From a virus, in the IMG/VR virus record IMGVR_UViG_3300021371_000027, positions 1 through 49,254 of that record: a stretch of 49,254 nucleotides of DNA; one strand, written 5' to 3'. The position numbers and the translations under genes were made by a program. Position 1 is the first letter of the stretch. Each line of letters opens with the position of its first letter. Under the pieces are notes generated by a model that saw nothing but the letters and a program-made list of their open reading frames with translations, made no database searches and was not told the origin of the DNA. This document shows positions 15 to 49,015 of this stretch, piece after piece.

Positions 15-52
15 TTGACAGCCCTTTCTATAGGGAATAGAAGGTGTATAAT
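15..52 (+). promoter_or_regulatory. Candidate promoter region upstream of the integrase
   Basis: A perfect TTGACA lies at 15-20 and a perfect TATAAT at 47-52, but they are 26 bases apart, too far for one ordinary sigma70 promoter. With a 17-base spacer the TTGACA would pair with TAGAAG at 38-43 (4 of 6 matches), and the TATAAT would need a weak -35 box near 25-30. The spacer holds an imperfect inverted repeat, CCCT at 22-25 and AGGG at 32-35, which could be an operator. Which combination is used is unknown. Confidence 0.4.
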
Positions 53-7151: not shown

Positions 7152-7849
7152 TGAAACAGAATTGGAAAACCCTAATTGATGGTGATATCATAGCCTATCG
7201 TGCGGGGTTTTCCTCTAACGATCTTACTGTTGAAGAAGCCTTGTTAAAAACAGATAGCTTGGTTTCTACAGCCTTAGAAGACTCTGAATACTTCACGGAA
7301 GGCAATCATCAAGTCTTCCTTACAGGTAAAGGGAACTTTAGATTTGATATAGCAAAGACAGCTACATATAAAGGCAACCGTAAGGACTCGGCTAAACCAA
7401 TACATCTACCTGCTATCAGAGAGCATATGTGCAACAAGTACAGTGCAATCGTTAGCAGTGGGGAGGAAGCAGACGATCTGATAGCAATAGAAGCCACTAG
7501 CTATGGCAAGAACGCCCTTGTTGCTAGTATTGATAAGGACATGCTACAGATACCTTGCTACCACTACAATCTGAGTAAGAGGCTGTTTTCTGTCGTAGGA
7601 GAATTTCAAGGACTTAAGTTCTTCTACACTCAGATACTTACTGGTGACTCCGCTGACAATATTATTGGCCTGTACAAGTGTGGGCCAGTAAAAGCAAAGA
7701 AGTTGTTACTTAATTGCAACACTGAGATTGAATTGTGGGATGCTTGCGTTGATGCATACGACGGTGACAAAGAGCGTGTCATTGAGAATGCTAGGCTCCT
7801 ATGGCTAAGAAGAGAAGTAGGTCAAATATGGGAGCCACCAAGTGCCTAA
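7151..7849 (+). CDS. 5'-3' exonuclease / flap endonuclease (T7 gp6-like)
   Basis: The 232-residue protein has the metal-binding acidic clusters of the FEN/5'-3' exonuclease family: DGD at 10-12, EEADDL near 104, DKDML near 131 and GDSADNI near 169, followed by a helix-hairpin-helix-like KCGPVKAKKLL. In T7 the equivalent enzyme removes RNA primers and degrades host DNA. It starts in the stop codon of the SSB gene and overlaps the resolvase gene after it. Confidence 0.85.
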   Translation: MKQNWKTLIDGDIIAYRAGFSSNDLTVEEALLKTDSLVSTALEDSEYFTEGNHQVFLTGKGNFRFDIAKTATYKGNRKDSAKPIHLPAIREHMCNKYSAIVSSGEEADDLIAIEATSYGKNALVASIDKDMLQIPCYHYNLSKRLFSVVGEFQGLKFFYTQILTGDSADNIIGLYKCGPVKAKKLLLNCNTEIELWDACVDAYDGDKERVIENARLLWLRREVGQIWEPPSA

Positions 7850-8453: not shown

Positions 8454-8481
8454 TTGACAAATGTGTTTAGTTGAGTATAAC
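8454..8481 (+). promoter_or_regulatory. Sigma70-like promoter with TATAACTAG box
   Basis: TTGACA at 8454-8459 and TATAAC at 8476-8481 are 16 bases apart. The downstream bases are TAGGGG, identical to those after the capsid promoter on the other strand near 34999. A transcript would start near 8488, only a few bases before ATG 8491, so the first gene would be nearly leaderless unless ATG 8497 is used. Confidence 0.7.
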
Positions 8482-8490
8482 TAGGGGATT

Positions 8491-33697: not shown

Positions 33698-34771
33698 TTA
33701 AGCTGCGTTATAACGGGCAGTAACGATTGCTTCAGGACGAAGAATCTTACGACCGTATAGATGCATACCACGAACAATGTCAGCAAAGCTGTCAGGGTCA
33801 CGATATGTTTCTGTCTTGTTGATCTGCTCGGCTGTTGCTACAGCAGAATCATGACCAGCTACGATAACACCGAAGTTAGTCAGTTGGTTGGCAGTACCCG
33901 AAGTACCCGGTCCAGTACCCAAAGAAGGCAGGTTAGACGAAGAGTATACACGGAAACCGTGGAAGTTGCTAATGGTCAAACCATTACGTAGTCCACCTGA
34001 TTCACCGAAGTCTGCGTTCATGAAGCGTGAATCTTCATCAGCAAGAATTTCCATGAATACTGGATCAACTACAATCCAACGGCCTTGTTTGTCAACTTGC
34101 TGTTGATCAAGCAAACGAGCCATACGAGCAACAACCATTGCTGGTGAAGCTGTAGCAGTTGGAAGTGCAGTAGCACCGGGCAAACGTGCAGCCAGAGGAA
34201 TAGAGTGTGTTCCTGCAGAGCTTGTAGTGATGTTGCCAAAGTCATCCTTATGCAGTTGCATAGAGGAAAGCAGTTCGTTAGAACCAGCAGTTGATACTGC
34301 TTTAGTACCGTTTACAGTAGTATTCAGTGCATCAGCTTGTGAGTGCAAAGAAGACTGTTTGTAACCAGACATGTAGCCAAGAACTTCTTGGTCATGTTGG
34401 TCAGCAAGACGGTATGCAGCACGGTTGGTTGCAAGGTCCATAAAATTGACGTGGCTATGAGCTTCTTCAATGTCATCCATTTTGAAAGCAAAATAGTTAG
34501 CTTTGTCAATAACCAGAGAAAAGTCCTCGTCTTGTAAGTCTTGCGCTGTGACATTTGTGCCACGTGCATATTCGCTTACAGAAATTTCTGGTTCTTTAAT
34601 AATTTTAACGGTGTCACCTTGTGAGGCAATCTCGCCAAAATAATCAGAGTTGGTGATATCACCACATACAGTACTCTTGCGGAAAGCAAGCTGTACTTTT
34701 TTAGAATAGATTACAGGGCTAAAATTACCATTCGGTAAATTCCCATAACCTGTTGCTGTTGTAAAAGCCAT
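33698..34771 (-). CDS. Major capsid protein
   Basis: ATG 34771 (MAFTTATGYGNLPNGNFSPV) follows a strong AGGAGG. An upstream frame extension is discarded. The 357-residue protein ends LYGRKILRPEAIVTARYNAA, a C-terminal pattern I know from podovirus coat proteins, and lies after the scaffold gene with its own promoter. An HK97-type fold is expected: an N-terminal arm (1-45), a region with WIVVDPVFMEILADEDSRF near 245, and a loop domain before the C terminus. Upstream are a long leader, a 19-bp hairpin and a strong promoter, consistent with high expression. Confidence 0.85.
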   Translation of the reverse strand: MAFTTATGYGNLPNGNFSPVIYSKKVQLAFRKSTVCGDITNSDYFGEIASQGDTVKIIKEPEISVSEYARGTNVTAQDLQDEDFSLVIDKANYFAFKMDDIEEAHSHVNFMDLATNRAAYRLADQHDQEVLGYMSGYKQSSLHSQADALNTTVNGTKAVSTAGSNELLSSMQLHKDDFGNITTSSAGTHSIPLAARLPGATALPTATASPAMVVARMARLLDQQQVDKQGRWIVVDPVFMEILADEDSRFMNADFGESGGLRNGLTISNFHGFRVYSSSNLPSLGTGPGTSGTANQLTNFGVIVAGHDSAVATAEQINKTETYRDPDSFADIVRGMHLYGRKILRPEAIVTARYNAA

Positions 34772-34845
34772 AATAAATCCTCCTATAAAGTGTAGGCTTT
34801 GTGAGCTAAACACAAAACATAAGAGGCTGTAATTTTTCTAGGGTG

Positions 34846-40549: not shown

Positions 40550-42085
40550 TTAATATCCGAATGTAGGGTCTGCTGCTTGAAACCCAGAGTTTTGTGTAGA
40601 AGGGTCAAAATCAAATAGACTGCTTCTAGGTCTTGTCATTATACCGTAACGTAGTGCATCGTACAAGTGGTCTTCTGCATGTGTATCTACATCTTCAGGG
40701 TTATTCTTGTCCAAGGGTAGTGCAGGTATTTGACTAATAGTGTTAGTACAGGTCTCAAAAAACACTAACCTAGGTTCTTCCGTAAAGTCGTCTACTTGTA
40801 AACGTCTGTGTAGTTCGTTCTTACCTGCTACCCTAGAGCCTCTAGACCTATCAGAAGGTCTCCATCTACAACCCTTCATAATCATTTGTTCAGCAAGAGA
40901 TGGGCCAGTATCACCACGATTATGCCACAAAGAAGAGTCCAAAACTCCATACCTAATCTTTTCACCTTCTTCTACTTCTAAGATCATATCAGCTAGGTCA
41001 GTAGCTATGACCTTTGAGCAGTACATTTCTCTGTAGACTACAAGCTGTTCATCAGGCGCTACAGCAAACCATACTACTCCTGTGTAAGAACCATAACCAT
41101 AGTCACAAGCCCTAAACTTTGCCCAACTACTAGGTATTTCATAAGGCTCTACTACGTGTATGTTACGATTCCACTCAGGAAAAGCAGCACCCTCATTTAC
41201 ATCCCAGTTACCTTCAAGCAGTTGCTTACGTTGATGTTCAGGTAAAGACAGTAGATTAGCTTCATACATACCATCGTCAGCAAGGTAGGGGTTATCAAAC
41301 AAAGTAGCAGGAATAAACCTACGTTTAAATAAAGGTTCACCTTCTCTTGAGTGTCCTTTAGGCCAAGCTATAACTTCTTGTGTTTCTGGATCAGTAGCAT
41401 CAAAGCTAGTATTATGCGGTGCAGGGTCTACAAAAGTTTTCTTAACCCATTGATGACCTGCTCCTCCGGGGTTTGTAGTTCCCCTTTGATAAAGATCAAG
41501 TCCACTGTTCTTAGTAGTACGTAGTCGTGACCTCATATAATTCCAAGCAAAAGGTGTAGGCCATTGGGTAAGTTCGTCAAAACCAATCCAGTTAAAAGCT
41601 TGTCCTTGATACCTAGAAACATCATCATCCCTATCTAAATAACTTAACCATAAAGACGCACCAGAAGGAGCTATCCAAGTCTTTTCTCTTTCTAAAAACT
41701 TAATTCCCGGAATTGCTCTGGGATATAGTTGCTTTGAAACAGATATAAGTTCTCTTAGTTCCTCTGTACTTCTACGGACTAGAAGTTTGTTAGACAAAGG
41801 ATTGTTAAAATACCTAACAGGATCAGCCAACATAGCAAAAGACTTACCCCCACCTGCTGCTCCTCCGTATAAAACCTCTTGTTCTGAAGCTGAAAGAAAG
41901 TCTGTCTGAGGACCGGGATTAGCCTCAAAGATAACTTCTTGAGCTTTTTCTATTTCAATCGGCTCTGGCAGTACTGTCGCTGGAACTGTCTTCGGTTTCT
42001 TTTCTAATTGAACCGAATCTTTCTTCTTCAAGACGCCTCGCTTTTGCTTCCGCTTCTTTGTAGCGCTGGGCGTAGTACCGTGCAT
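40550..42085 (-). CDS. terL: Terminase large subunit
   Basis: The packaging ATPase-nuclease has Walker A GGAAGGGKS at 74-82, Walker B IGFDEL near 165, and nuclease acidic residues in FRACDYGYG, YGVLDSS and DHLYDALRYG. The start is ATG 42085 (511 aa). A TTG ten codons earlier is possible. The conserved part begins only at about residue 50 (EVIFEANPGPQTDFL), just after the end of the overlapping HTH gene, so the first 50 basic residues are written out of frame over that gene. A frameshift fusion of the two is an alternative. Confidence 0.9.
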   Translation of the reverse strand: MHGTTPSATKKRKQKRGVLKKKDSVQLEKKPKTVPATVLPEPIEIEKAQEVIFEANPGPQTDFLSASEQEVLYGGAAGGGKSFAMLADPVRYFNNPLSNKLLVRRSTEELRELISVSKQLYPRAIPGIKFLEREKTWIAPSGASLWLSYLDRDDDVSRYQGQAFNWIGFDELTQWPTPFAWNYMRSRLRTTKNSGLDLYQRGTTNPGGAGHQWVKKTFVDPAPHNTSFDATDPETQEVIAWPKGHSREGEPLFKRRFIPATLFDNPYLADDGMYEANLLSLPEHQRKQLLEGNWDVNEGAAFPEWNRNIHVVEPYEIPSSWAKFRACDYGYGSYTGVVWFAVAPDEQLVVYREMYCSKVIATDLADMILEVEEGEKIRYGVLDSSLWHNRGDTGPSLAEQMIMKGCRWRPSDRSRGSRVAGKNELHRRLQVDDFTEEPRLVFFETCTNTISQIPALPLDKNNPEDVDTHAEDHLYDALRYGIMTRPRSSLFDFDPSTQNSGFQAADPTFGY

Positions 42086-42392
42086 TTTCAGCGTCTGTCT
42101 TACGTTTTCGCTCAAGTTTTACTCTTTTCATTAATCCGACATGAGAGATTGATCTGCCAGTTTGTTCGCTTAACCAAATTGCAACATCCCTGTAGCTGTA
42201 TTGCTTAAGATGTTTCTTTGCTAGTTCTAGTGTTTCTAACTCCTCAGTCAGAGGTAGTAGTATGTCTTCATCATTAGGGTCTTGCTCGTAACCAAAAGGC
42301 ACTACCCTGCCTACACGGACGACAGGAAACCATTGAAGACCACTACTTAGTTTCTCTGGTGGAGGTAGCCTCCAAGTCTTATTAGTTTTCAT
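41955..42392 (-). CDS. HTH protein overlapping TerL (145 aa)
   Basis: Residues about 60-90 (YRDVAIWLSEQTGRSISHVGLMKRVKLERKRK) form a helix-turn-helix like those of resolvases and small terminases. The C-terminal third is a long charged coiled coil. The gene lies between TerS and TerL and overlaps TerL by 131 bases in another frame. It could help recognise the packaging site, as a second DNA-binding subunit. That is inference. Confidence 0.7.
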   Translation of the reverse strand: MKTNKTWRLPPPEKLSSGLQWFPVVRVGRVVPFGYEQDPNDEDILLPLTEELETLELAKKHLKQYSYRDVAIWLSEQTGRSISHVGLMKRVKLERKRKTDAENARYYAQRYKEAEAKARRLEEERFGSIRKETEDSSSDSTARAD

Positions 42393-42741
42393 TTTTAGCT
42401 GGTAAAATAAATAAAGGACTTTCAGCCTTTACTTCTATTTTATCTGTTTTTACAAATCCTGCACGATCCAGAAAGTCCTTAGCTACTGCTATTTTTTCTT
42501 TATTGCCTAGCTGTGTAGGATCATTAAAGACTTCCATCATACCATATGCAACACGTGTACCAGAGGAAGCAATGTAGCGTTTAGTAGCTTCATAGATTTC
42601 ATCCTGAAGCACACCTGTAATGGTTGTAGAAGATACAGAATCTGCATAACCAGCAAGACGTTTAGCCTCTACAGGATTACCCTTAGCTTCCTCAAATAAA
42701 ACATCTATAAACTTCTGTTGTTTTTCTGTAAGTTTTTTCAT
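42382..42741 (-). CDS. terS: Terminase small subunit
   Basis: The N terminus LTEKQQKFIDVLFEEAKGNPVEAKRLAGYAD (4-34) is the HTH of the TerS families that bind the packaging site. A helical oligomerisation region follows (about 45-85), and a C-terminal tail (SPLFILPAKNEN) may contact TerL. The 119-residue length is short but acceptable. It lies two genes before TerL. Confidence 0.78.
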   Translation of the reverse strand: MKKLTEKQQKFIDVLFEEAKGNPVEAKRLAGYADSVSSTTITGVLQDEIYEATKRYIASSGTRVAYGMMEVFNDPTQLGNKEKIAVAKDFLDRAGFVKTDKIEVKAESPLFILPAKNEN

Positions 42742-43181
42742 GTCATCTTTCTGTAAGGTTTTACTTTGGCTGCAACTTTCTTAGGTTGAGCCACAAACTG
42801 CTTGCCCTGAGCCTTGCCTCTTCGTTTGGCACGGGTTGAAGCAGCATACTCAGAATCACTAAGAGATTTAATAGCTTTAGCAGGAAGGTATCTTTCGCCA
42901 GTAGCTTTAGACCCTTGTGTTGAGGGCTTACCACTCTTAGTTCTCCAATCCTGCTCAGTCCAAGACTTAAGGCTTTTTTGACTAGCAGCTAATCCACCCG
43001 TATTCATCTTCATGGGTTTCTTTGCTTTTGCTTGAGCAGTCTTACTTAGGTCTTTTAGATGGAACAATTTTTTAGAGGACTTAGACATTCTAGCCCCTGT
43101 CATTACTGTTCCATCTTTGTGTTTATGTGTTTTGCCAGACCATACTGTTCCGTCACGTAAATAATGTTTAACACCTTTCAT
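42738..43181 (-). CDS. Basic hypothetical protein (147 aa)
   Basis: The product begins MKGVKHYLRDGTVWSGKTHKHKDG and is Lys-rich throughout. A central MNTGGLAASQKSL segment resembles the GG(L/M) motifs of other late proteins. GGAGG precedes ATG 43181. No domain is recognised. The composition suggests binding to nucleic acid or to an acidic virion surface. Confidence 0.55.
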   Translation of the reverse strand: MKGVKHYLRDGTVWSGKTHKHKDGTVMTGARMSKSSKKLFHLKDLSKTAQAKAKKPMKMNTGGLAASQKSLKSWTEQDWRTKSGKPSTQGSKATGERYLPAKAIKSLSDSEYAASTRAKRRGKAQGKQFVAQPKKVAAKVKPYRKMT

Positions 43182-43384
43182 GACCTATATCCTCCACCAG
43201 CTTCTTTGTAAGCTTTTGCAAGCATCTGTGCTTTACGGGCGGACCATTGACCTGCCGCACCCCCTTTGCTTCCAGCTTTAATCCTTGCAAAAAGACGCTT
43301 ACGCAGAGCAGGTTTAGTATAATTACCTGCCTCATTTACTTTAGAGGTTTTCTTTATTTTTGAACTTGCTTTTGATCTCGCCAC
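43178..43384 (-). CDS. Small basic protein, DUF5872-like (68 aa)
   Basis: The sequence GNYTKPALRKRLFARIKAG followed by GAAGQWSARKAQMLAKAYKEAGGGY is a compact motif found in many cyanophage and pelagiphage proteins. I connect it with DUF5872, from memory. Function unknown. The start overlaps the end of the DUF1127 gene by 44 bases. Confidence 0.65.
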   Translation of the reverse strand: MARSKASSKIKKTSKVNEAGNYTKPALRKRLFARIKAGSKGGAAGQWSARKAQMLAKAYKEAGGGYRS

Positions 43385-43493
43385 GTGTTATGCCTATGTC
43401 TTTTAAAGCCTTGTCTGACATATGTTGTAGTTGCCAGTATGCCACTCTACGTTCTTGTGCTTCTTGTATTGTTTTGATAAATTTCTTGAACAT
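43341..43493 (-). CDS. DUF1127 small protein (YjiS-like), 50 aa
   Basis: The product begins MFKKFIKTIQEAQERR and continues VAYWQLQHMSDKALKDIGI, TRGEI, KSKF. The block L..(M/L)SD..LKDIGI.R.EI is the signature of DUF1127, a family abundant in alphaproteobacteria and linked there to RNA binding and phosphate/carbon control. AGGAG precedes ATG 43493 by eight bases. The gene has its own promoter at 43635-43607 and a perfect inverted repeat over its start codon. It overlaps the next gene. It looks like a captured host regulator. Confidence 0.8.
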   Translation of the reverse strand: MFKKFIKTIQEAQERRVAYWQLQHMSDKALKDIGITRGEIKSKFKNKENL

Positions 43494-43542
43494 GGTATCT
43501 CTCCTTATGTCTAACCACAAGGACAGTTATACCATGTTCAAG
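43485..43542 (-). repeat. Perfect 14-bp inverted repeat over the DUF1127 start codon
   Basis: CTTGAACATGGTAT (43485-43498) is the exact reverse complement of ATACCATGTTCAAG (43529-43542). In the mRNA the 3' arm contains the start codon, and the AAGGAG ribosome site lies in the 30-base loop, where UCCUU can pair with it. The 5' arm contains AUG GUA UAA, a two-codon frame. The structure could hide the start site until something opens it. Confidence 0.85.
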
Positions 43543-43606
43543 CTTAAATAACTACAGCTATAATTGCAACCCCGCTATGCAGGATTAAAATATCATCCCC
43601 ACCGTA

Positions 43607-43635
43607 ATAGTAGCAGGGAAGATTAAGTGTGTCAA
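43607..43635 (-). promoter_or_regulatory. Sigma70-like promoter for the DUF1127 gene
   Basis: On the minus strand TTGACA (43635-43630) and TACTAT (43612-43607) are 17 bases apart. The predicted transcript starts near 43600 and has a leader of about 107 bases with the inverted repeat at its end. The surrounding 254-base gap is one of very few in the late arm. Confidence 0.65.
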
Positions 43636-43638
43636 GGG

Positions 43639-44379
43639 CTACTTCTTTTTAGCCATACCACCTTTGTTCATAGGCTTCTTCTTAGTTACAGAACCACCGT
43701 ACATATAACCAGATTTCTTAGCTAAACCACCTCTATTAGCTTTCCACATATTTGCATACATAGAAGAACCAATAGTACCTGCACCACTAAGCCTTAAAGC
43801 TTCTGCTTGTGTTTTAGGTAAACCTGCCGCTACTCTTTGTGCAGGACTCATATCTTTCCAAGCTTGAAGAGTAACAGTTTTCATTTTTCTTTTTTGTGCT
43901 GGTGGTGTACCAAAACCGGGGTCTCTTCCGCGTCCTCCACCAACTCTATCTTCAGGTGCTTTACGGATTCGTCTTCCACCCGCTCCTGCACCTCCACGTC
44001 CCACTGTATCTTTTGGTGCTTTACGGCGTCCTATTGGATTACCCGATCCTGCACCTCCACGTCCCACTGTATCTTCAGGTGCTTTACGGCGTCCTATTGT
44101 ATTTCCCGGACTTGCACCACGACCACTATATTTTTTTTCTGTTTTCTTTTTAGTAGTGGTTTTTTTCTTAGTGGTAGTAGTAGCTGTTCCCGGCTTTTTA
44201 CGCCGTGCGCCACCAAGAGAAGCAAGTAATCCGGGTTTACCTTTAGTACCCATCTTACCATCAAAACCTAACAAGTCTCCTAGATAGGTATCTTCAAAGC
44301 CAATGCTTTTATTTCCGCTTGTGTCTTTAAGTGAGCGTTTACCGCCAAACTTAGGGTCTTTCTTTTTCTTCTCAGCCAT
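43639..44379 (-). CDS. Basic repeat protein with GG(L/M)AKK tail (246 aa)
   Basis: The protein is Lys/Arg/Gly-rich. A Lys-Thr tract (about 70-85) is followed by nearly three copies of a 21-residue unit containing RRKAPEDTVGRGGAG (about 93-150), then an ordered section with LQAWKDMSPAQRVAAGLPKTQAEAL. The C terminus has NRGGLAKKSGYMYGGSVTKK and MNKGGMAKKK, a peptide shared with neighbours. No function is known. A virion-associated DNA-binding role is possible. Confidence 0.6.
   Translation of the reverse strand: MAEKKKKDPKFGGKRSLKDTSGNKSIGFEDTYLGDLLGFDGKMGTKGKPGLLASLGGARRKKPGTATTTTKKKTTTKKKTEKKYSGRGASPGNTIGRRKAPEDTVGRGGAGSGNPIGRRKAPKDTVGRGGAGAGGRRIRKAPEDRVGGGRGRDPGFGTPPAQKRKMKTVTLQAWKDMSPAQRVAAGLPKTQAEALRLSGAGTIGSSMYANMWKANRGGLAKKSGYMYGGSVTKKKPMNKGGMAKKK
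43984..44099 (-). repeat. 63-bp tandem repeat in the basic protein gene
   Basis: The unit at 43984-44036 recurs at 44047-44099 with two differing bases over 53, and a third diverged copy begins near 43937. The spacing of 63 bp keeps the frame (21 residues), so units can be gained or lost by slippage without breaking the gene. Confidence 0.85.
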
Positions 44380-45242
44380 TAGCTTCTTCCCTTTTTAAGA
44401 TTGTTTACTTGTGACTTAACCATGCCACCCATGTTGTAGGTCATAACACCTTTTTTAGTCATGCCGCCTTTGTTCATTTTTGCATCTCTAAGAGATGTTG
44501 AAAAAGCTTTTTGTGCTTGGCTGGGAGGTCTAACACCTGTTACCCTGCGGTCTTTTTTATTACCAAATTCATCGTCATCTGAACCTAAATAGATCTCATT
44601 CACGCCCCTTCGTAGCATAGCTTCTGCCTCTAGGTCAGACATAGTGCGACCTTTACTGCTATTCATTGGGGCATTTGAAAGTTCATCAGGCATACGTGAT
44701 TTACGATTTGCTCTACGTTTTTGTTCAGCCTTTGGTCCTTTTGGTCTATTATTAGGGCGCTTAGAAGGCCCAGAACCAGTACCAGTTCTAGTATCAGCAA
44801 GAAGTTTATCAGCTTCTTCTCTGCCTTTTTGTATAGCAGCACGTTTAGCAGCTCTATCTTTTTGAGCTTGTGCTATATCTTTTTGCAACTTTTCAACTTG
44901 TTGTGCGGGAGACATTGCATTATTGTTTAAAGCTCTTTTAGGAGTAGTAGTTTGCCTACTTCTTTGCTCATCACTAATTGCATCTTTTTTCTTTGGTGTT
45001 TCTTTTTTCTTAGGCCGCAACTGTGGTCTTAGAGATTTTGTAACACCTTTTTCTCCAACATCTTTACCTTTGTTATTAGCCCAAGCAGCAAGAGCGCTAC
45101 CCTTATACTTGCCTTTATTCTTTTTCTTCCATGCATTAAGTTGCTCTGCAGTTACTGCAAGTTTTTTAGTTCCATTCTTATCGTAGAAGTATATGGAACC
45201 AGCTTTTTGAGCTGCACTAATACTTTTATGTTTCTTCGCCAT
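44379..45242 (-). CDS. Basic hypothetical protein with GGM motifs (287 aa)
   Basis: The N terminus (MAKKHKSISAAQKAGSIYFYDKNG) is followed by a Lys-rich and Pro-rich body with a coiled coil near 110-155. The C-terminal end has MNKGGMTKKGVMTYNMGGMVKS, the GG(L/M) peptide found in several late proteins. AGGAG precedes the ATG. No family is recognised. Confidence 0.6.
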   Translation of the reverse strand: MAKKHKSISAAQKAGSIYFYDKNGTKKLAVTAEQLNAWKKKNKGKYKGSALAAWANNKGKDVGEKGVTKSLRPQLRPKKKETPKKKDAISDEQRSRQTTTPKRALNNNAMSPAQQVEKLQKDIAQAQKDRAAKRAAIQKGREEADKLLADTRTGTGSGPSKRPNNRPKGPKAEQKRRANRKSRMPDELSNAPMNSSKGRTMSDLEAEAMLRRGVNEIYLGSDDDEFGNKKDRRVTGVRPPSQAQKAFSTSLRDAKMNKGGMTKKGVMTYNMGGMVKSQVNNLKKGRS

Positions 45243-45254
45243 GATACACTTCTC

Positions 45255-45569
45255 CTATGCCTTACCAGCGTTTTTGTTTCTACGGAACGACCTGTTACTA
45301 GTTTTACTTTTAACAGATAGATTACCCATAGAGTTATTCATAGGGTTGCCATCTTTATGATCAACATCCCTACCATCACCCTTAGTCACCGCACCATTTT
45401 TCTCTAAAGCACGTCTAGCTCTTTTACGAGCAGCATTCTTAGCTAACTCTATAGGAGTACTTTGTAGTTGGCGTTCTCGTTTATAATTACGATCAGAGGT
45501 AACATCACCCCCAATACTGTATCCACTTTTATTATGAACGGTCTTAGTAGGAAAAAATTTAGCTACCAT
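45255..45569 (-). CDS. HNH endonuclease-like protein (104 aa)
   Basis: DVDHKDGNPMNNSMGNLSV (about 67-85) followed by NRSFRRNKNAG fits an HNH nuclease core: D-H, an Asn-rich centre, and a terminal Asn/Arg. The N-terminal half is basic. HNH proteins often sit beside terminase genes and assist packaging. Here it is separated from TerS by about 2.5 kb. It could also be a remnant of a homing nuclease. Confidence 0.7.
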   Translation of the reverse strand: MVAKFFPTKTVHNKSGYSIGGDVTSDRNYKRERQLQSTPIELAKNAARKRARRALEKNGAVTKGDGRDVDHKDGNPMNNSMGNLSVKSKTSNRSFRRNKNAGKA

Positions 45570-45841
45570 TTTACTTTATCCGCCCAGTAAGCTGCACTCA
45601 ACTTACCCTTCTTAATATTCTTCCCGTGACGAGCTTTAAAGGATGCACGTTTTTTCTTCATGCGGTCAGATTCACCCGTTTTGGGCTTCCCTGCCGTTTT
45701 AGCTCCCTGTTCACCGAACCTGATGAGCTTAATGGTTGTACCTTCTTTTGCAAGTACGGCATGACTTTTTTTCGGGTGATCAGGGGTACGCTTCGGCTTG
45801 TTATAACCTGCAAACTTCTCTCCTCGGTAGGTAATGCTCAT
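45563..45841 (-). CDS. Conserved basic phage protein (92 aa)
   Basis: The protein reads MSITYRGEKFAGYNKPKRTP, then KKSHAVLAKEGTTIKLIRFGEQG, and ends GKLSAAYWADKVKW. I recall this layout as a recurring small protein in cyanophages and pelagiphages with no known function. It may be a structural or DNA-associated protein. Confidence 0.6.
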   Translation of the reverse strand: MSITYRGEKFAGYNKPKRTPDHPKKSHAVLAKEGTTIKLIRFGEQGAKTAGKPKTGESDRMKKKRASFKARHGKNIKKGKLSAAYWADKVKW

Positions 45842-46029
45842 TGTTTATCTTTCAGTCTAGGTAAGCAGTAGGCGACAACCCTATCTTCTGGTGCTATGCC
45901 GTGTGTGCTGTAACGTCTTGTTATCTCTCTAGCATAATAGTTGCAATGTTCTATGTTGTCAAACACCATACTATCTTCTATTAATTCCCTAGTTGCACCT
46001 AGGTACACCATGAGAACAAAGGTGTACAT
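45838..46029 (-). CDS. Small hypothetical protein (63 aa)
   Basis: MYTFVLMVYLGATREL has a short hydrophobic N terminus, then a soluble part with two Cys residues (HCNYYA, AYCLPR). It starts in the stop codon of the endolysin gene, so it is translationally coupled to it, and a lysis accessory role is possible. Confidence 0.5.
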   Translation of the reverse strand: MYTFVLMVYLGATRELIEDSMVFDNIEHCNYYAREITRRYSTHGIAPEDRVVAYCLPRLKDKQ

Positions 46030-46481
46030 TACATCATTTCAAAGTGTGGTGCGTCTATAAATGGTCTACGCCCTTGTGAACGACGAACATCAACATAGGT
46101 GTTCATTGCATCTTCCATTGAACCATCCCACTCAGCAATATTACCTACTGTCCAAGCTGCTCCCCACTTAAGTGCTACACCTTTTTGTTTAGCAGCAGCA
46201 GCCATAGCATCAGCAATCTCATCATACTTATTTAACGACCAAGTAACGTTAGGGCCAATATAAGCTACTAGGTCTACTGCACGACCCTCTAGGTGTTTAC
46301 TCTTCATTGTTTGTGAGGCACCACTAGCAACAAGCTTCTCTTGCTCCTCTACAGTACGCATACCACAAGTTACTCCAAAGTCTACTTTGGTCAGAGTAAT
46401 AGCAGTCTTAACTACTTCTATTAACTGAGGATTAATACCTTCTAGTCTTCCTTCACTACGTGATGATAGTTTAAAACTCAT
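46029..46481 (-). CDS. Endolysin, M15 peptidase (L,D/D,D-peptidase) type
   Basis: The 150-residue enzyme has the zinc-site pattern of the peptidase M15_4 family: SKHLEGRAVDL (61-71) with His63 and Asp70, and DAPHFEMM at the C terminus with His146. TCGMRTVEEQEKLVASG (38-54) is the usual preceding block. Such enzymes cut the peptide cross-links of peptidoglycan during lysis. No signal peptide is seen, so export through a holin (47029 gene) is expected. Confidence 0.87.
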   Translation of the reverse strand: MSFKLSSRSEGRLEGINPQLIEVVKTAITLTKVDFGVTCGMRTVEEQEKLVASGASQTMKSKHLEGRAVDLVAYIGPNVTWSLNKYDEIADAMAAAAKQKGVALKWGAAWTVGNIAEWDGSMEDAMNTYVDVRRSQGRRPFIDAPHFEMM

Positions 46482-46921
46482 TTGAATAGTCCGCCTTTAC
46501 GCATATCATTGTGACCTGTTCCTGCTAGGCCACCTTGTTTAAAACCTTTTGTTTTCTTAGCTAGTCCACCTTTATTATTTTTACTAGGAGCATATTTTTT
46601 TACACTGTTATTTTTATCTAATAAATTTTGCATTTGATCATAGGGAAAAGTAAAAATATTTTCAGTAGCAGGAGAACCTTGACCACCTATATCTTTTGCC
46701 TCATCATTAAATTTAGACATATAAGTTCCGGGATCATTATAAAGATAACCATCTTTATCTTTATTAGTATCTTTAGGTACGTATTTTTGTTTACCCCACC
46801 TACTTCTTAAACGTGCAAACTGAGCTTTATCTTCTGCTGTGTATTCTCCACTGTCTATCTTACTTCCTAAAGCCATTAGTTTTTTGACTAAAGAATTATA
46901 GTCAGTATACATTTTATCCAT
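46478..46921 (-). CDS. Hypothetical protein with GGL motifs (147 aa)
   Basis: The N terminus is helical (MDKMYTDYNSLVKKLMALGSKID). The C-terminal 30 residues hold NKGGLAKKTKGFKQGGLAGTG and MRKGGLFK, three copies of the GG(L/M) peptide. ATG 46921 overlaps the end of the 42-residue gene. Function unknown. It is coupled to the endolysin by an overlapping stop/start. Confidence 0.55.
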   Translation of the reverse strand: MDKMYTDYNSLVKKLMALGSKIDSGEYTAEDKAQFARLRSRWGKQKYVPKDTNKDKDGYLYNDPGTYMSKFNDEAKDIGGQGSPATENIFTFPYDQMQNLLDKNNSVKKYAPSKNNKGGLAKKTKGFKQGGLAGTGHNDMRKGGLFK

Positions 46922-47042
46922 TAGTTTTCTCCGATATGAGCTTTGATTGCTCTCGTATTTGTTCCTGCTGCTTCTCCAAAATAAGAAACTGTTTGTCTAG
47001 CTCAGAAAGCTCTGGAAGCTGAACGACATTACTTCTTTCCAA
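46914..47042 (-). CDS. Small coiled-coil protein, TTG start (42 aa)
   Basis: The only gap in the lysis block is filled by a frame from TTG 47042: NVVQLPELSELDKQFLILEK continuing in a charged helix to ISEKTNG. It overlaps the holin-like gene and ends inside the next ATG (ATGGATAA). The clean coiled-coil composition and nested ends favour a real gene, though the start codon is not certain. Confidence 0.5.
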   Translation of the reverse strand: MERSNVVQLPELSELDKQFLILEKQQEQIREQSKLISEKTNG

Positions 47043-47772: not shown

Positions 47773-48023
47773 TATTCCCAATCCCTTTTAGTTCTTGGCT
47801 GAAATACGTCTTTAGCCTCTAAGTGTCCCTCTAAATACATTGCTCTCTCAACATGATCTAAAGTATACTTGACGCCTGTATCTTGAAATATTGCTTCTCT
47901 TACATAAAAAACATCTGAACGAGGAATATGACACAATCGTAGTCTTGCTTCATCCTCATCTGCTAATGCTAAATAGAAATTTTCTATGACTTTGTCACTG
48001 ACATACCGTCTAATCTTTGACAT
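47772..48023 (-). CDS. First late gene, possible leaderless mRNA (83 aa)
   Basis: ATG 48023 (MSKIRRYVSDKVIENFYLAL) lies seven bases after the TATAAC of the promoter at 48059, so the mRNA would begin at or beside the start codon. No ribosome site is present for transcripts from the upstream promoter either. The product is helical and charged (LRLCHIPRSDVFYVREAIF). A regulatory role would suit its position, but no HTH is clear. Confidence 0.6.
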   Translation of the reverse strand: MSKIRRYVSDKVIENFYLALADEDEARLRLCHIPRSDVFYVREAIFQDTGVKYTLDHVERAMYLEGHLEAKDVFQPRTKRDWE

Positions 48024-48186: not shown

Positions 48187-48216
48187 ATTATATAGTAAAC
48201 CTACTACTATTGTCAA
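48187..48216 (-). promoter_or_regulatory. Late promoter P1
   Basis: On the minus strand TTGACA (48216-48211) and TATAAT (48192-48187) are both perfect, with an 18-base spacer. It is the strongest-looking promoter in the window and points into the late arm. The leader carries the mirrored blocks described at 48104. Confidence 0.8.
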
Positions 48217-48610: not shown

Positions 48611-49015
48611 CTAAAGTATATGTCAAGCCTCTCATTAGTAAATTTCCTGTATCTTTTGATAGCAATTATCTCTTTTGATAGCTAACATATTCTAAAGTAT
48701 ATCTTTTATATACAATAGTAAATTGTCCCCGTCTAAAGTATAGGTCAATAATGCTTACATATACTAAAGTTACTCAGAACTCTCAAAAGTTATGTACCCC
48801 CCACTTTAGATATCTCAAAAGTATACCCCCCAAACTAAAGTATATATCACTACATACTTCTGATACTACTATGACTAAAGTATGTATGCCTATACCTTGG
48901 TATATGTTGCAGCTATCAAAAGTATATTTTTCCGTCAAATCAGCCGAAAGTATGTATATACCCCACAATGATCACAGACATATCCTTAATAGCATTTGAC
49001 ATACCACCTTTAGTA
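48611..49015. repeat. Array of about twelve CTAAAGTATA-type motifs
   Basis: Copies with (C/T)(T/A)AAAGTATA or close variants start near 48611, 48691, 48732, 48763, 48784, 48824, 48835, 48874, 48916 and 48944. Two are inverted, near 48813 and 49007. Several are followed by CCCCCC. The core resembles CCTAAAG, the repeat found beside the terminal repeats of T7. Spacing is irregular, so this is not a CRISPR array. Confidence 0.75.
48652..48682. repeat. 12-bp direct repeat TCTTTTGATAGC
   Basis: TCTTTTGATAGC occurs at 48652-48663 and 48671-48682. Its inverse, GCTATCAAAAG, is at 48912-48922 and runs into one of the AAAGTATA motifs. The set could be binding sites of one protein with the array motifs as half-sites. 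Confidence 0.65.

Follow-up and report, generated by a model that had tools for sequence, protein, structure and literature searches.

The window analysed here is a viral record that spans 49,254 bases. In its large terminase it shares 72.5% identity with Roseobacter phage CRP-603 and 66.5% with HMO-2011, which places the window phage in the HMO-2011 type; it also encodes a tyrosine integrase. A gene of 50 codons lies on the minus strand (43341..43493, with its ATG at 43491-43493). Its 50-aa product scores 38.1 bits against the Pfam profile of DUF1127 (PF06568), above the gathering cut-off of 23.3, and this profile search bears out the family membership claimed in an earlier note on this DNA. 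The protein shares the domain, the length of about 50 aa and the basic character of the small cellular proteins YjiS, CcaF1 and the A. tumefaciens SDPs, but it is phage-borne and its gene has a hairpin leader. Cellular DUF1127 proteins bind PhoR and affect phosphate uptake, and CcaF1 of R. sphaeroides has been reported as an RNA-binding DUF1127 protein (PMC12501420); both activities are reported for cellular members only. A literature search on DUF1127 and phage found, by title and abstract, no paper about a phage-encoded member. The use in lysogeny suggested in the earlier note is unsupported, since CRP-9 and CRP-13, isolates that carry the module described below, gave no integrase match; neither use in early infection nor capture from a host, which the note also proposed, gained support.

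Two promoter-like sites that look strong, at 48216 and 48059, stand ahead of a series of co-oriented genes, and RNA reading through the DUF1127 leader is therefore expected. The late cluster also contains an HNH endonuclease-like gene (PF13392; 45255-45569, minus strand). The sequence ATACTTTAG occurs six times on the minus strand (48611-48883 and 47858-47866), with five of the copies inside 273 nt of a gene-poor stretch. It is expected 1.1 times in the whole window, and no shuffle reached six copies. These copies are possibly iterons or regulator sites.

The leader of the DUF1127 gene contains a perfect 14-nt inverted repeat, also on the minus strand, with a 5' arm CUUGAACAUGGUAU at 43529..43542 and a 3' arm AUACCAUGUUCAAG at 43485..43498, 30 nt apart. 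They are the sole 100% complementary pair of at least 14 nt within 120 nt in the whole window. Repeat search and folding both recover this repeat with the AUG inside its 3' arm, as described before. The Shine-Dalgarno sequence AAGGAG (43501..43506, minus strand) had been placed in the loop, facing a UCCUU. It does pair with the UCCUU stretch, but in the upper stem, and the stem that encloses the AUG and the Shine-Dalgarno consists of the 14-nt repeat helix plus one further helix. For the 121-nt leader the fold energy is -45.9 kcal/mol (z = -6.6), a stability matched by none of 200 shuffles, and the hairpin by itself accounts for -33.6 kcal/mol. Among the 43 gene starts tested in the window, the DUF1127 leader has the lowest fold energy. 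The Rfam family models gave no match to positions 41000-47000 at E values up to 1. Elsewhere in the window, the Shine-Dalgarno of the gene starting at 34813 on the minus strand is also predicted to be closed, with an openness of 0.001 when 100 nt are folded, as is that of a gene at 7842 on the plus strand.

Scans of viral contigs and annotated phages yielded several hundred related loci. Collapsing loci whose leaders are similar over their last 80 nt left 76 representatives, and the conserved box described below can be recognised in 72 of these; the clustering used simple string similarity, and the representatives are related phages that are not fully independent. Arm sequences are very divergent among these 72 leaders and complementarity is retained, as illustrated by CRP-3 (ATAATTATCTC/GAGATAATTAT), CRP-235 (AAACTCTCCTTAGT/ACTAAGGAGAGTTT) and the contig leader L310 (ACTCCTATG/CATAGGAGT). 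The mean pairing energy of the native arms is -17.5 kcal/mol, compared with -12.0 kcal/mol when arms are exchanged between phages and -13.5 kcal/mol in the best of 5000 arm permutations, a test that pools families. Mean openness of the Shine-Dalgarno is 0.07 in the native leaders and 0.39 when the upstream part is shuffled with the Shine-Dalgarno kept. The pair next to GGAG is U-A in 28 cases and A-U in another 28, and the following positions also show several pair types, although these counts come from predicted folds and are biased towards pairing. Nearly every leader has its helix centred on the Shine-Dalgarno, and A3 of GGAG is paired in 65 of 68. Some representative stems are merely about 9-11 bp long. 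As judged from these comparisons, the hairpin is under selection, because its arms diverge greatly in sequence yet still pair. The arms thus covary in related phages, and the check by arm covariation proposed in the earlier note was passed. Four loci (L095, L215, L239 and L265) have an extra small inverted repeat inside the hairpin loop, such as GTAAG...CTTAC.

HMO-2011 itself has neither a DUF1127 gene nor the box. The cobaviruses SIO1 and ICBM1 are roseophages that also carry a DUF1127 gene, but there it is packed against the upstream gene, without the box and without a comparable hairpin. The leader was also considered as an ancestral DUF1127 feature, and this was rejected: none of five plasmid-borne bacterial genes and two cobavirus genes has a comparable leader, in a small sample in which some starts and Shine-Dalgarno sites are uncertain.

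A conserved box lies upstream of the hairpin (CATAGCGGGGTTGCA at 43565..43579, minus strand, identified by sequence comparison). The form CATAaCGGGgTTGCA is common to the subfamilies, and no record has more than one copy when 0-1 mismatches are allowed; it is degenerate in some isolates, for example CRP-235 and CRP-212. The single occurrence speaks against a general promoter motif of the phages, and we rejected that reading of the box. A reading in which the box would close a terminator hairpin as its 3' half was rejected as well; 12% of permutations pair equally well upstream, although a few loci do pair well.

One or two -10-like elements stand at fixed phase to the box. The inner one, P2, is a hexamer that lies 32-35 nt past the box in all 72 representatives, as TATAAC in 58, TATAAT in 2 and TAAAAC in 12. 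In the window, P2 is part of an extended -10-like element TGGTATAACT (43525..43534, minus strand) that overlaps the 5' arm, and RNA started from it would be predicted to begin near 43519. The outer element, P1, lies 18 nt past the box in 42 of the 72, which puts TTGCA at the normal -35 distance; TATAAY stands at 18 nt in 41. Over the remaining positions from 5 to 60 nt past the box, TATAAY is rare in these leaders. The distance from the box to the ATG varies from 64 to 95 nt, so the rigid part is a DNA frame and not the whole leader. In L086, L088, L089 and L090, an outer promoter TTGCAT/A-17-TATAAC is followed 14-16 nt on by a second TATAAC, giving tandem promoter-like sites in fixed phase.

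A scan that ignored proteins and looked for the box, N17-36 and TATAACT returned at least 120 viral matches. Among the matches listed, 120 of 120 precede a DUF1127 ORF by 64-95 nt. In 84,980 bacterial and archaeal genomes the same pattern gave a single, unrelated match, without DUF1127. Among these viral matches, the linkage of the module to DUF1127 is strict.

P2 has no TTGACA-like -35. TATAACT is plausible as a -10 in the window phage, because TTGACA-16..18-TATAAY occurs four times in the window, compared with 0.14 times in shuffles; three of the four are TATAACTAG. Two promoter-like sites of the form TTGACA-16-TATAAC, at 8454-8487 (plus strand) and 35026-34993 (minus strand), are identical through TATAACTAGGGG, and the latter precedes the gene 33698-34813 by about 180 nt or more. 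P2 overlaps the 5' arm in the window, and its conservation there may partly reflect pairing. However, in CRP-235 the 5' arm is located before the TATAAT rather than over it, and in 14 of the 72 leaders the P2 hexamer barely pairs with the 3' side yet is retained. Pairing alone is therefore insufficient to explain the conservation of P2.

The position of the RNA 5' end has a marked effect on the predicted folds. Openness of the Shine-Dalgarno was computed by folding for the 72 representatives, with the P2 RNA start assumed at +7. The median is 0.002 for read-through RNA, 0.002 for P1 RNA and 0.795 for P2 RNA; leaders with openness above 0.5 make up 4%, 4% and 88%, respectively. When the 5' end was moved base by base, mean openness stayed at about 0.08 up to the P2 hexamer, reached 0.16 with the 5' end on the final base of the hexamer and went on to 0.45 at +4, 0.70 at +6 and 0.75 at +7 and +8. 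The climb falls between +3 and +6 nt after the hexamer, just short of the expected RNA start, and the boundary between the closed and open states predicted for the leader therefore coincides with the RNA start expected of such a -10.

The earlier note had pointed to other elements of the leader. The promoter TTGACA-17-TACTAT is present (43607..43635, minus strand), but it lies outside the conserved module and is found in only one of the 76 representatives. A weak terminator-like stem past the upstream gene (43596-43619, minus strand) overlaps it. Likewise, the two-codon frame AUG-GUA-UAA exists in the 5' arm but occurs in only 24 of the 72 leaders. The bases taken for this frame are the inner -10 element plus the complement of the start codon. 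Attenuation by such a frame has a precedent in the duf1127_1 leader of S. meliloti, where a translated uORF mediates Rho-dependent attenuation (PMC12218461). That is likewise a DUF1127 gene controlled by its mRNA leader, and the window does contain AUG-GUA-UAA. The phage leaders, in contrast, have no conserved uORF and hide the ribosome site directly. TGGTATAA as the -10 element, together with the complement of CCAU, accounts for the frame where it occurs, and no Shine-Dalgarno is seen before it. An attenuator of this kind is hardly credible here.

We propose that the leader is probably a promoter-in-hairpin gate of the T4 type, built on a host-sigma-like promoter in HMO-2011-type roseophages. 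RNA started upstream, either by read-through from the late operon or, in many relatives, from the outer P1 at the box, would carry both arms. It would fold so that the Shine-Dalgarno and/or the AUG is hidden, and DUF1127 would remain untranslated. P2 lies in or beside the 5' arm, and RNA beginning about 7 nt downstream of it would lack most of that arm, leave the ribosome site open and permit translation of DUF1127. If P2 is a working promoter with this RNA start, DUF1127 output would depend on the firing of P2 alone, regardless of transcription through the operon. The suggestion of the earlier note that RNA structure gates translation thus holds for the closed ribosome site, but its target has changed. 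Because the conserved -10-like element TGGTATAACT sits inside the 5' arm, the hairpin should, by prediction, hold back RNA arriving from upstream and spare RNA begun at the gene's own start site.

In the papers cited below, gates of this kind are described from T4-like phages with their late promoters. In the T4 genes e, soc, 49 and I-TevI, an inhibitory hairpin has a late promoter within its 5' strand, and segB and mobE of phage Aeh1 are further cases; transcripts from upstream hide the Shine-Dalgarno and/or AUG, and RNA started at the promoter is well translated (PMC3014915, PMC2988022). The phage DUF1127 leaders resemble this system in their predicted folds, with a Shine-Dalgarno that is closed in the long RNA and open in the short one. 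A -10-like hexamer, a candidate promoter in or beside the 5' strand, stands at fixed phase in all 72. The leaders differ in the promoter and in the gated gene. T4 uses its own late sigma gp55, which reads TATAAATA. The DUF1127 leaders do not match this late promoter; their motif is TATAACT, as in the TTGACA-16..18-TATAAY sites. Their -10-like element resembles the host type, is often extended (TGnTATAACT), and comes with a one-copy box and often with a putative tandem outer promoter 14-16 bp upstream. The gated product is the DUF1127 protein of HMO-2011-type phages. The gates of T4 gene e and I-TevI have been experimentally tested, whereas the DUF1127 gate is predicted from sequence and folding. 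By analogy, it would work like the T4 gate, and homology to that gate is not claimed.

One difficulty for the gate comes from the 12 of 72 leaders in which P2 is TAAAAC, a weaker -10, and P1 is good in most. If only P1 works in these leaders, their mRNA would always be closed. No published transcriptomes of HMO-2011-type phages were found in our literature search. The tandem arrangement also allows a more elaborate and less probable reading: a regulator at the one-copy box may pick P1 or P2, and folding would read out the choice. P1 RNA would then be silent for DUF1127 and serve the downstream packaging genes only, while RNA from P2, 14-16 bp beyond P1, would additionally yield DUF1127. The same 12 leaders, by pairing a weak TAAAAC with a mostly good P1, would also be compatible with control of P1 RNA by a trans-acting factor. 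The main RNA, from P1 or read-through, could begin with the whole hairpin, which a small RNA or a protein, DUF1127 itself perhaps, could open or stabilise, so that control would lie with the ligand and not with the start site. The reported RNA binding of its relative CcaF1 (PMC12501420) fits such a role. However, the arms and loops are too divergent to offer a common binding sequence beyond the pairing of the Shine-Dalgarno, and the phase of P2 is fixed even where P2 barely pairs, which makes opening in trans unlikely.

Two further readings regard closure of the ribosome site as secondary. The inverted repeat could act at the DNA level, as the operator of a dimeric repressor or regulator at the promoter, with the RNA hairpin as a by-product; the repeat does overlap a promoter-like element, and the box, present in one copy, is strictly conserved as a DNA site. 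An operator would be expected to conserve sequence and spacing, yet arm sequences and loop lengths vary widely while complementarity to the Shine-Dalgarno is kept, and we regard this explanation as very improbable. A long stem located at the 5' end of an RNA, or close to it, can stabilise mRNA, and the stem might act on the mRNA of the downstream packaging genes, as a stabiliser or as an RNase III processing site, with the closure incidental. The shortest stems noted above are short for RNase III, and a helix centred on the Shine-Dalgarno, with A3 paired almost throughout, argues against this reading, so that this explanation has, if anything, a slightly smaller chance than the operator.

The promoter-in-hairpin gate, if it operates in HMO-2011-type phages, would mean that phages unlike T4 use this device too. 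Its retention across this widespread, diverse and abundant marine group suggests more than one origin, and it suggests that these phages need tight control over the timing of a small regulator, DUF1127. With the one-copy box, such DUF1127 genes can be located in metagenomes from the DNA, and no protein search is needed. If the two-promoter switch is true, a shift of about 15 bases in the RNA start would set the dose of a host-type regulator. If the phage DUF1127 acts on PhoR like its cellular relatives, the switch would be tied to phosphate use in infected marine bacteria.
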